Shown piece after piece: positions 35,398 through 37,997 of a stretch of DNA of 41,927 nucleotides (position 1 is the stretch's first letter; each line of letters opens with the position of its first letter). A program made the translations under genes and the position numbers. Under the pieces are notes generated by a model. The model searched no databases. It was not told the DNA's origin and saw nothing but the letters and a program-made list of their open reading frames with translations. Location: the NCBI RefSeq assembly GCF_943181405.1, contig NZ_CALPBY010000011.1:1-41927 (forward strand), read 5' to 3'. This stretch comes from Cellulosimicrobium sp. Marseille-Q4280. GTDB taxonomy: Bacteria; Actinomycetota; Actinomycetes; Actinomycetales; Cellulomonadaceae.

Positions 35398-36030
35398 TCA
35401 GATCACGTACTCGATGAGCAGCGAGGGGTCCTCGACCGGGTCGGCACCCCGGTGTGCGGCGGGCATGCGGACACGGGCCGGCACCCCGACGGCGACCGCA
35501 CCCGCCGGGACGTCCTTGACGACGACGGCGTTCGCACCCACCTGCGCGTCGTCGCCGACCCACACCGGTCCGAGGATCTTCGCGCCCGCACCCACGACCA
35601 CGCGGTCACCGAGAGTCGGGTGCCGCTTGCCGCGCTTCATCGACCGCCCGCCGAGCGTCGACGTGTGGAACAGGACCACGTCGTCCCCGACGACGGCCGT
35701 CTCGCCGACGACGACCCCCATGCCGTGGTCGATGAAGAGGCGTCGGCCGATGCGCGCGCCCGGGTGGATCTCGACGCCCGTCAGGGCCCGCGCCACCTGC
35801 GACACGAGCCGCGCCGGCAGGCGCAGCACCGGCTCGCGCCACATGCGGTGCGCGAGCCGGTACGACCACACCGCGTGGACGCCGGGGTAGGCGAGCGCGA
35901 CCTCGAGGCGACTGCGCGCCGCGGGGTCGCGGTGCCGCGCCGCCTCGAGGTCCTCGGCGAGCACGCGCAGGAACCGCCGCACCCGCGACGGTGCGCCGGC
36001 GGACCCGCGCGACGGGATGTGGTCGACCAC
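35398..36030 (-). CDS. cysE: Serine O-acetyltransferase
   Basis: 210 residues. It makes O-acetylserine for cysteine synthesis. The helical N-terminus ([20 protein letters not shown]) and the left-handed beta helix of hexapeptide repeats ([38 protein letters not shown]) are clear. [16 protein letters not shown] holds the catalytic His and Glu. The protein ends in EYVI; a C-terminal Ile of CysE is known to enter the CysK active site in the cysteine synthase complex, so that complex is likely. The start is GTG at 36030, one base after the cysK stop, so the pair is an operon. A strong hairpin follows. Confidence 0.95.
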
Positions 36031-36031
36031 G

Positions 36032-36967
36032 TCAGTCCAGGAGGTCCGCGTAGAGGATCGAGGACAGGTACCGCTCGCCGAACGACGGGATGATCGTCAC
36101 GATGAGCTTGCCCGCGTTCTCCGGGCGCTCGGCGAGCTGCAGGGCCGCCGCGATCGCCGCGCCGGAGGAGATGCCGACCAGCAGGCCCTCCTCCTTCGCC
36201 GCGCGACGCGCGTACTCGACCGCGGTCTCCGCGTTGACGTCGATGACCTCGTCGTAGACCGACGTGTCGAGGATCTCGGGGACGAAGTTGGCGCCGATGC
36301 CCTGGATCTTGTGCGGGCCGGGGGCGCCGCCGTTGAGGATCGCGGACTCCTCGGGCTCGACGGCGACGATCTGCACCCCGGGCTTGCGCTCCTTGAGCAC
36401 CTGCCCGACACCCGTGATCGTGCCGCCGGTGCCGATCCCGGCGACGACGATGTCGACCTCGCCGTCGGTGTCCGCCCAGATCTCCTCGGCGGTCGTCGCG
36501 CGGTGGATCGCCGGGTTGGCCTCGTTGGCGAACTGGCGGGCGAGGATGGCGCCCTCGCGCTCGGCGACGACCTCGTCGGCCTTGTTCACCGCGCCCTTCA
36601 TGCCCTCGGAGCCCGGCGTGAGGATGAGCTCGGCGCCGAACGCGCGCAGCAGGGCGCGGCGCTCCTTGGACATCGTCTCCGGCATCGTCAGGACGACGTC
36701 GTAGCCGCGCGCCGCGCCGACCATCGCGAGCGCGATGCCGGTGTTGCCGGACGTCGCCTCGACGATCGTCCCGCCGGGCTTCAGCTCGCCCGACGCCTCG
36801 GCCGCGTCGATGATCGCGACGCCGATGCGGTCCTTGACGGAGTTCGCCGGGTTGTAGAACTCGAGCTTGCCGACGACGGTCGCGCCGACGCCCTCGGTGA
36901 GCTTGTTGAGGCGGACGAGCGGGGTGTTGCCGACGAGCTTCGTGACGTCGTCGTAGATGCGTGCCAT
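36032..36967 (-). CDS. cysK: Cysteine synthase A (O-acetylserine sulfhydrylase)
   Basis: 311 residues. It converts O-acetylserine and sulfide to cysteine. [20 protein letters not shown] starts the protein. The PLP Lys is K45 in [11 protein letters not shown], the substrate loop is [12 protein letters not shown], and [15 protein letters not shown] binds the PLP phosphate. [16 protein letters not shown] is the C-terminal signature. GAGGA precedes the ATG. It is followed by cysE one base later. A leader of about 390 nt containing a Cys-codon-rich small ORF lies between the probable promoter and cysK, suggesting control by cysteine supply. Confidence 0.97.
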
Positions 36968-37184
36968 GGCTTCCTCTTCTGTCGACGGCTCGGACGAGCC
37001 AGGGGGACCAACAGGGTGCGACGGTGCGGGGGCACCGGGTGCTGCGGGGGAGTGCTCCAGGACACTCGGACGACCTGTCCCGGGAGTCCGTCGCCGCGCG
37101 ATGTCGCGTGAGCGGGCCGACGCCGTGGCGACGGGCGGGGGACGTGCGACGGGTGCGCGGAGCGGCGGGCGCGTCCGGCGGTCG
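36968..37184 (-). promoter_or_regulatory. Long cysK mRNA leader downstream of the cysteine leader ORF
   Basis: 217 bases between the leader ORF stop and the cysK ATG. A GGCTCG/CGAGCC hairpin (36987-37000) lies about 20 bases before the ATG, just ahead of the ribosome site. Short mutually exclusive pairings are possible around 37060-37095 (GGACA/TGTCC versus CGGAC/GTCCG in the RNA). I cannot fold the RNA here, so the switching structure is not shown. Confidence 0.45.
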
Positions 37185-37268
37185 TCAGCGACAGCCGTGA
37201 CAGCGACAACAGGAGGTGCGCGCGAGAGCGCGACGGGGCGATGCGGGACGCGCGCCGGTCGCGGTCAT
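37185..37268 (-). CDS. Cysteine-rich 27-residue leader peptide upstream of cysK
   Basis: The ATG at 37268 is preceded by AGGAGGAGCGAGGA, the strongest ribosome site in the window. The peptide starts [17 protein letters not shown] and ends [10 protein letters not shown], four Cys in its last seven residues. All four Cys codons are TGT, although the genes of this window use TGC almost exclusively. It lies on the same strand as cysK, 217 bases upstream, after a good promoter. Polycysteine leader ORFs that act as cysteine-responsive attenuators are known in mycobacteria. By analogy, ribosomes stalling at these codons when Cys-tRNA is low would change the leader fold and raise cysK-cysE expression (inference). 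Confidence 0.6.
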
Positions 37269-37361
37269 TCCTCGCTCCTCCTGCTCGACGGCGCCCGTGC
37301 CGGTGGATGGCCGGACAACCGGCCGACGTGCTCGGCCGCGCCGGGGGCGCTCGATGGTCCG

Positions 37362-37391
37362 AGGGTATCCGCCCACGTCGTGGCGCGGCAA
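37362..37391 (-). promoter_or_regulatory. Probable promoter of the leader ORF-cysK-cysE operon
   Basis: On the minus strand TTGCCG (37391-37386), an 18-bp spacer and TACCCT (37367-37362). Transcription would start near 37355, giving about 87 bases before the leader ORF. Confidence 0.5.
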
Positions 37392-37411
37392 CGCCGTCCG
37401 CCGACCGGACG

Positions 37412-37450
37412 ACGACGGGCGCCCCGCCGAGGTGGTGGGGCGCCCGTCGT
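37412..37450 (-). terminator. Terminator of the tRNA-Gly gene
   Basis: 17-bp stem (37412-37428 with 37434-37450; core ACGACGGGCGCCCC) with one G-U pair and a 5-base loop, directly after the tRNA on the minus strand. It separates the tRNA from the cysK promoter. Confidence 0.8.
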
Positions 37451-37456
37451 GGGTCG

Positions 37457-37530
37457 TGGAGCGGGCGACGGGAATCGAACCCGCGTAATCAGTTTGGAAG
37501 ACTGAGGCTCTACCATTGAGCTACGCCCGC
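37457..37530 (-). tRNA. tRNA-Gly (anticodon TCC)
   Basis: Read on the minus strand: acceptor GCGGGCG/CGCCCGC, D-arm TAGCTCAATGGTAGAGC, and anticodon stem CTCAG with loop CTTCCAA giving TCC. The T-arm is GCGGG-TTCGATT-CCCGT. A T discriminator and CCA are encoded, total 74 bases. TAAGGT on the minus strand (37602-37597) is a likely -10. Confidence 0.97.
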
Positions 37531-37652
37531 GTCGGGTCGGTACTGCTCCGGGCTGTGTGGCTCCGGCCTGAGTGGCACTGCCGACCTGCGGCCGCAACCT
37601 TAGCAAACAGGCAGCAGGCCGACGAGCCGCCGGACCCCGCCCTTCCCACCAG

Positions 37653-37658
37653 TACACT
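37653..37658 (+). promoter_or_regulatory. Probable -10 box of the tRNA-Pro gene
   Basis: TACACT, 30 bp upstream of the mature tRNA 5' end. No convincing -35 hexamer is visible. Confidence 0.4.
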
Positions 37659-37688
37659 TGCGCTGGCCCGTCGTCCTCGACGGGTGCA

Positions 37689-37763
<75 letters not shown>

Positions 37764-37780
37764 ACATCGTGAAGCGGGCC

Positions 37781-37812
37781 GAGGGCGGGCGTCCCGACGG
37801 GTCGCCGCCCTC
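37781..37812 (+). terminator. Terminator of the tRNA-Pro gene
   Basis: GAGGGCGG/CCGCCCTC 8-bp stem with an inner CCCG/CGGG pairing, 19 bp after the tRNA. Confidence 0.6.
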
Positions 37813-37858
37813 CTGCGGCAGCGCTCGTCCGACGGAGGACACCGTCGCTCGGACGGGT

Positions 37859-37888
37859 GGCGTACCCTTGATGGGTTGCCCGTACGCC
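37859..37888 (+). promoter_or_regulatory. Probable tig promoter region with inverted repeat
   Basis: TACCCT (37863-37868) is a candidate -10, the same hexamer as at the cysK promoter. It overlaps the left arm of GGCGTAC (37859-37865) / GTACGCC (37882-37888), a 7-bp inverted repeat that could be an operator. Confidence 0.35.
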
Positions 37889-37997
37889 CGTCGGGGTCGC
37901 ACGTGGGTCCGGAAGGATCCGCCGGTCCCGTGGCGGCGCGCGCAGCTCGTCCCGTAGCCGCACGCCGGCCCGCCCCGATCAGTTGGAGATCATCGAA

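Follow-up and report, generated by a model that had tools for sequence, protein, structure and literature searches.

The cysK-cysE locus and its leader ORF

The DNA analysed here (the window) is a stretch of 41,927 nt from Cellulosimicrobium sp. Marseille-Q4280 (contig NZ_CALPBY010000011.1 of assembly GCF_943181405.1, positions 1 to 41,927). All leader, promoter and cysK-cysE coordinates are positions of this window, on the minus strand, which a preliminary description of the region had left unstated. The naming of the two genes in that description is borne out by protein family models scoring above their cut-offs. The features discussed are the following:

36032..36967, minus strand: cysK, cysteine synthase A (TIGR01139, 451 bits against a cut-off of 351), ATG at 36967
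35398..36030, minus strand: cysE, serine O-acetyltransferase (TIGR01172, 236 bits against a cut-off of 211)
37386..37391, minus strand: -35 element TTGCCG, from the sequence; TTGC in 25 of 25 aligned loci of the genus and its sisters
37362..37367, minus strand: -10 element TACCCT (TAnnnT type), separated from the -35 element by 18 nt; GATA[GC][CG]CTC in the same 25 of 25 loci
37277..37282, minus strand: Shine-Dalgarno (SD) sequence AGGAGG of the leader; AGGAGG in 17 of 17 genus loci
37185..37268, minus strand: leader ORF of 27 codons, the proposed cysteine sensor; ATG at 37268, body variable, tail conserved
37191..37211, minus strand: stretch with four TGT codons (first bases 37211, 37208, 37202 and 37193), the last Cys lying two codons before the stop
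36968..37184, minus strand: C-rich spacer between leader and cysK, 217 nt; 48% C and 30% G in its first 205 nt

The cysK frame runs to 36032 and that of cysE begins at 36030, so that the two genes have the appearance of a single operon. Neither translation (window 35398..36967) contains a cysteine residue, so that both enzymes could be synthesised during cysteine starvation.

The promoter-like pair, the 27-codon ORF with its AGGAGG site 217 nt ahead of cysK, and the four Cys codons near its end, all of them TGT, had been reported in the preliminary description, and each is found as reported. A generic sigma-70 consensus scan of 36900..37900 called no promoter, having missed this one because TACCCT agrees with TATAAT at just three positions; the pair is supported by its conservation in the aligned genus and sister loci. 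An intrinsic-terminator scan of the same interval returned no terminator-like sites. Among relatives, the alignment shows that the spacer between leader and cysK varies in both length and sequence.

Upstream of the promoter lies a tRNA-Gly (TCC) gene (37530..37457, minus strand). Directly after it, an inverted repeat was spotted by eye, CGACGGGCGCCCC...GGGGCGCCCGTCG (about 37413..37449), which is probably the terminator of the tRNA gene; it was not called by the intrinsic-terminator scan.

The TGT codons had further been described as hardly used elsewhere in the window. The count agrees, with 4 TGT against 80 TGC in the 18 window ORFs taken as likely genes by their codon-position GC, some of which overlap on opposite strands so that not all can be real. 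A TAG stop is used once among these 18. An ORF of the leader type, meaning here one whose final 10 codons include three or more Cys and whose SD match is at least 5, occurs in just one of 276 overlapping 600-nt windows taken from both strands of the 41.9-kb window.

Conservation of the leader in the family

An alignment of relatives had been proposed as a check on the ORF and its Cys codons, and both prove to be conserved. We compared 80 loci, each consisting of the 600 nt upstream of cysK: that of the window and those of 79 other family genomes, of which 16 belong to the window's genus. A match was present in 213 of 221 family genomes, and the loci were picked by hand from the listed places, favouring higher identity; the genera sampled include Cellulosimicrobium, Oerskovia, Cellulomonas and Demequina. 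The start of each leader was fixed by giving priority to the number of Cys in the tail and after that to the SD, a rule that leaves some starts doubtful (L153 and L165 among them).

A short ORF with at least two Cys in its last 10 codons is present in all 80 loci, although this test is a loose one that 11 of the 80 antisense sequences also pass. When at least three Cys and an SD match of at least 4 are demanded, the ORF is found in 71 of the 80 loci, against 1 of 80 antisense sequences and 3 of 778 control windows. GC-rich DNA abounds in short ORFs (a 6.5-kb part of the window is overlapped by 57 with 20 aa or more), yet conservation of this kind excludes a Cys-rich ORF arising by coincidence, a possibility so slight as to be negligible. 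Outside the family, a leader satisfying the stricter test was found at none of 30 Micrococcaceae loci and none of 18 other named loci, groups that were sorted by hand.

The geometry of the leader end is fixed, with the last Cys codon exactly two codons ahead of the stop in 80 of 80 family loci. The preliminary description regarded the locus as a variant architecture on account of its strong ribosome site and its non-contiguous Cys codons; the first feature stands, whereas the second is not peculiar to this locus, since split Cys codons (CCRC[LR] and the like) are common in the family leaders. TGT outnumbers TGC in these leaders by 221 to 91, and the last Cys codon is TGT in 77 of 80. TGT is thus preferred in the leaders although it is rare in the window genes that were counted.

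In the window's genus, promoter, SD and Cys tail have hardly changed, in contrast to a spacer of variable length and sequence. Cys codons clustered near the stop, positioned upstream of a cysteine-metabolism operon and retained while their flanks vary, are also what characterises the Cys leader attenuators of Actinobacteria, and the window's leader shows all of this. In the body of 16 genus leaders (codons 2-18), each of the three codon positions varies at a similar number of sites (10, 8 and 8 of 17), and the ORF as a whole has a ratio of nonsynonymous to synonymous changes of 2.03, where 2.47 would be expected; only 5 sites vary in the tail (codons 19-27). The near-equal variation of the codon positions and this ratio indicate little amino-acid constraint on the leader, a pattern that argues for a sensor acting in cis over a role for the encoded protein.

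The ORF might instead encode a functional small Cys-rich protein, binding metal or thiols, that is a neighbour of cysK by chance, and its conserved CCxC-like tail and strong SD would suit such a product. We consider this highly improbable, given that the body of the leader is under so little amino-acid constraint, that the tail is conserved at the nucleotide level, including the choice of TGT and the bases around the stop, and that the leader is linked both to cysK and to the covarying hairpin at the stop codon described next.

A stop-anchored hairpin in related genera

Most of the sampled relatives have an RNA hairpin that starts within the stop codon of the leader. At the 63 family loci outside the window's genus the leader stop is always UAG, in the context TGTCNNTAGAGCG at 56 of them and TGTCNNTAG[AG]GC at 62, and a stem of the type GAGCGCUGGC/GCCAGCGCUC begins at the G of this UAG. 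Folding yields the anchored hairpin, with a length of 25-80 nt, at 59 of the 63 loci (not at L112, L118, L165 and L188).

In an alignment of 40 rows, 90.5% of the cells of the 10-bp stem are paired, compared with 33-47% in slid controls; the former value is inflated because the rows were selected for the hairpin, whereas the slid and shuffled controls use identical rows. The selection was by hand from 70 distinct rows, which derive from the 88 of 108 loci already folding the hairpin, and L129 and nL022 were dropped. Cells changed on both sides of the stem number 38 against 13.1 in shuffles (0/500), and 7 of the 10 pairs show a double change.

A covariance model of the hairpin (R1) was built from 26 rows, the majority belonging to loci that the family test then searched again. 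With a threshold of E<=0.01 it has a match in 146 of the 220 family genomes and, across the order, in 79 of the 396 genomes taken. Among the listed family matches, 122 were compared with the position of cysK (28 others, in genomes without a listed cysK place, were left out), and 117 of them lie on the cysK strand, less than 700 nt ahead of the gene. The remaining five comprise one match at a contig end (G054, E 4e-11) and second or weak matches in G107, G084, G167 and G146 (E 8e-4 to 4e-3). Twenty order-wide matches were examined: 13 precede cysK and are associated with a Cys-containing frame ending at UAG, and these include four families besides that of the window, while the other seven each have E values of at least 0.0014, one being cut by a contig end. 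Little weight attaches to a class-wide scan with 0 of 394 genomes at E<=0.001, in which only 12 candidates per genome were scored and G139, a match at 4.8e-5 in the family scan, was missed.

Only tRNA exceeded the Rfam gathering score, both at eight relatives' loci carrying the hairpin and in 3.2 kb of the window, and the open-licence PMC literature that was searched yielded no paper on the Cellulomonadaceae cysK leader or on a stop-anchored hairpin. The element thus appears to be a covarying RNA structure absent from Rfam and undescribed in that literature.

Folding and covariation make the existence of the hairpin in the relatives well supported; that it acts as a terminator we infer. The sequence most commonly following the stem is GCCCC (31 of 70 rows), and in 40 of 70 rows the 9 nt beyond the stem are devoid of T. 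With a U tract mostly missing, even in the sister genera any output step is putative. In a relative of lower GC content (L171), the stop-anchored hairpin is followed by TTTTTCTTG, so resembling an intrinsic terminator.

Loss of the hairpin and a candidate pairing in the window's genus

The window and its 16 genus mates do not carry this element. At the cysK leader, R1 matches none of the 17 genus loci at E<=0.05, as opposed to 62 of the 63 other family loci at E<=0.0035 (the last, L118, has 0.028). In the window's own genome, R1 gives only matches with E>=0.85 and the motif TGYCNNTAGAGCG does not occur. The stop codon of the leader is TGA in 17 of 17 genus loci, and the ORF runs three codons further beyond the CCRC-like core. 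Judged by these sequences, the window's genus has lost the stop-anchored hairpin.

Such a loss might mean that regulation disappeared together with the hairpin and that the leader is a relic, with a slowly decaying ORF. R1 indeed has no match in any of the 17 genus loci, nor in the genus genomes listed in the family scan. We nevertheless regard a relic as quite improbable, as the Cys tail, the SD (17 of 17) and the promoter have remained nearly invariant at all 17 loci despite a scrambled spacer, and as a second Cys leader (see below) is intact at every one of the 16 genus loci where it was found.

With the hairpin gone, the best candidate that we can offer for an inhibitory structure in this genus is a pairing of the Cys codons themselves with the SD region of cysK:

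37194..37214, minus strand: candidate anti-SD arm, the Cys-codon stretch UCCUGUUGUCGCUGUCACGGC (alifold consensus, duplex test)
36972..36989, minus strand: cysK SD region GCCGUCGACAGAAGAGGA, candidate partner of the Cys-codon stretch (alifold, duplex test); TCGACAGAAGAGGAA in 17 of 17 genus loci
36987..37000, minus strand: local hairpin GGCUC/GAGCC adjoining the cysK SD (alifold)

In the minimum-energy consensus that RNAalifold gives for 15 genus rows, the Cys-codon stretch is paired with the SD region of cysK; the centroid hardly shows this pairing. The 3' arm of the GGCUC/GAGCC hairpin would compete with this pairing. A covarying hairpin specific to the genus was also considered and rejected, the alifold consensus near the cysK SD being built on nearly invariant bases.

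In the genus, the duplex of Cys tail and SD has a mean energy of -20.2 kcal/mol; other segments of the leaders average -11.1, and the mean rank of the tail is 0.04. These values come from 17 loci sharing ancestry and from a pairing without covariation, its bases being nearly invariant. In the rest of the family (n=63) the corresponding energies are -13.2 and -12.1 kcal/mol (rank 0.40). The pairing looks weaker than this when the tail itself is shuffled as a control: only 9 of the 17 genus loci reached p<=0.05 (mean 0.10). The rank among other segments is moreover poor in L123 (0.20) and L126 (0.28). The informative difference from the relatives lies mainly in a GACAG 5' of the cysK SD and possibly reflects a single evolutionary event.

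Folding of the leader for alternative structures had also been proposed earlier. Full-length partition-function folding of the 17 genus loci, with and without a modelled stalled ribosome, revealed no consistent freeing of the SD, and in the window the SD became slightly less free with the ribosome in place (from 0.68 to 0.63 or 0.59). Sequestration of the SD of the next gene by leader RNA is thus favoured in part by the complementarity and receives no support from full-length folding. The original suggestion that stalling reshapes the leader may now be put more narrowly, as a stop-anchored hairpin in the relatives and possibly a Cys-codon/SD pairing in the window's genus.

We tentatively propose, allowing it rather less than an even chance, that the UAG of the sister genera provides the first base of a covarying hairpin and that the window's genus has kept the sensor while exchanging this hairpin for the Cys-codon/SD pairing. 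If this is true, stop codon, last Cys codon and hairpin foot form one fixed module in the sister genera, and the output has been exchanged, from a hairpin to translational control, with the sensor ORF left as it was; the genome concerned has a leaderless-looking Cys leader as well.

A second Cys leader in the genus

This further leader, MTTATRTLLVTSRHGMPACALTCLSCCR followed by a stop, precedes a sulfite/nitrite-reductase-like gene that adjoins two genes of the PAPS-reductase family:

G000:C7 8677..8591, minus strand: second Cys-rich leader ORF (locus L251), 140 nt before the sulfite/nitrite-reductase-like gene

The best NCBIfam matches of the latter gene are below their cut-offs. The leader has a TACTGT seven bases ahead of its ATG and no SD, and from this promoter spacing it looks leaderless, so that one genome appears to contain both an SD-led and a leaderless Cys leader. 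It was kept at 16 of the 16 loci found among 17 genus genomes. Its RNA is strongly conserved, and alternating CUCAG/CUGAG segments could form competing hairpins.

The anti-SD duplex test was negative at the 16 loci of this second leader (mean rank 0.58), which shows that the test does not fire everywhere. The genus also has a second CysK/Cbs-like gene (L099-L111), at which no Cys leader was found in any of 13 loci; by eye, that gene is apparently leaderless.

Proposed mechanism and its output

Taken together, the sequence comparisons make it likely, in our view, that the leader is a cis-acting cysteine attenuator of cysK-cysE. The interpretation offered in the preliminary description is thereby supported, with the stalling caused by a shortage of Cys-tRNA, and what it does to cysK, as the parts that we infer. 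The ORF, its conservation, the fixed distance between Cys codon and stop, the covarying hairpin of the relatives and its loss here can all be read from sequence; the model adds ribosome stalling, the direction in which control acts and the step that it acts upon. The leader, conserved in the sampled family members, probably senses cysteine and turns on cysK-cysE when cysteine becomes scarce.

In this model a ribosome would translate the 27-codon leader and, where Cys-tRNA is scarce, stall at the TGT codons near its end, a position that would allow cysK-cysE to be expressed. With sufficient cysteine, the ribosome would complete the leader and depart, whereupon an inhibitory RNA structure would form. 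In most of the sampled relatives this structure would be the hairpin that starts at the last base of the stop codon. Because of that starting point, a ribosome on the last Cys codon, the first base of which is 8 nt upstream, would cover the foot of the hairpin, and an antiterminator would be unneeded. In the window's genus the Cys-codon stretch would pair with the cysK SD region, amounting to translational control. Granted an attenuator, we hold translational output in the window to be a reasonable possibility that falls a little short of even chances, and premature termination of transcription, by Rho or otherwise, to be a genuine but doubtful one; the rest goes to a mixed or undecided output.

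A close rival, though on balance an unlikely one, is that Rho loads on the C-rich spacer once the ribosome has left the leader and stops transcription before cysK, unless the site of loading is shielded by a ribosome held at the Cys codons. Shielding of a Rho loading site by a stalled ribosome has been proposed for mycobacterial cys leaders and has a precedent in the tna operon of E. coli. The spacer averages 52% C and 29% G over the 17 genus loci, and the excess of C over G in the window's spacer (+0.18) lies beyond the 1% tail (0.143) of 200-nt windows, the spacer itself being included among these. Its lack of conservation in sequence and length is, moreover, what a diffuse rut site would permit. 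However, the spacers following the hairpin in 59 relatives are equally C-rich (50% C, 27% G), in a comparison confined to cysK spacers of the family, and action of Rho leaves the complementarity between Cys codons and SD unexplained. Rho has been suggested for cys leaders before, in a prediction that the available text of Seliverstov et al. (PMC1262725) terms weak.

Comparison with known systems

Attenuators with Cys leaders are already known; the architecture described here adds a new variation to that kind. Among the closest known systems are the polycysteine sORFs of mycobacteria. These leaderless sORFs reportedly head cysteine-metabolism operons, and stalling on them is said to have been proposed to free the RBS of the next gene. 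The likeness consists in a Cys-rich ORF ahead of a cysteine-metabolism operon and in the RBS freeing on stalling that we envisage for the window. Unlike them, however, the window's leader has a 5' UTR, a strong SD and split Cys codons (CCRCxxC), and most of its sampled relatives have a stop-anchored hairpin. It would therefore fall outside the leaderless polycysteine type, as its AGGAGG and the conserved -10 element 93 nt before the ATG indicate; this difference from the mycobacterial form had been pointed out earlier and is upheld. In the text available, PMC13236596 (2026) cites Canestrari et al. 2020, on the mycobacterial polycysteine sORFs, as translation attenuation in M. smegmatis, and PMC4633059 (2015) notes Cys-rich small ORFs in mycobacteria.

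Cys leaders were predicted for cys operons of Mycobacterium and P. acnes and for cbs of B. longum by Seliverstov et al. 2005 (PMC1262725), who, in the part of their survey available, describe no conserved terminator hairpin for the Mycobacterium leaders and leave the mode of regulation open, suggesting Rho. Compared with the leaders in that part of the survey, the target here is cysK, and a covarying hairpin is present in other families.

The classical amino-acid attenuators (trp type, such as ilvB1 of M. tuberculosis as presented in the available text of PMC13236596) likewise possess a leader ORF with many codons for the amino acid that the operon makes. They differ in that the relatives' hairpin starts inside the stop codon and that a competing antiterminator was not found in an unsystematic search, and in the window no intrinsic terminator with a U tract was found ahead of the first gene (36900..37900). 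The closest precedent found for a ribosome covering a hairpin foot is the tlrB (yxjB) attenuator of Bacillus subtilis, in which, according to the portion of PMC6851288 available, a terminator hairpin has its base covered when a ribosome stalls close to the leader's end. The two would share the covered hairpin foot, the lack of an identified antiterminator and possibly an additional SD-sequestering structure; in tlrB, however, as far as that portion describes it, the stall signal is tylosin together with an RYR motif and not tRNA charging, and U residues after the hairpin are needed for termination.

Our data would widen the range of cysteine-sensing leader ORFs, so far mycobacteria and a few other species, by several more families of actinobacteria, and they supply an RNA structure backed by covariation, something that the 2005 survey did not find for the cys leaders of Mycobacterium. 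With the same sensor apparently coupled to different outputs, these loci offer a natural comparison for the evolution of attenuator output.
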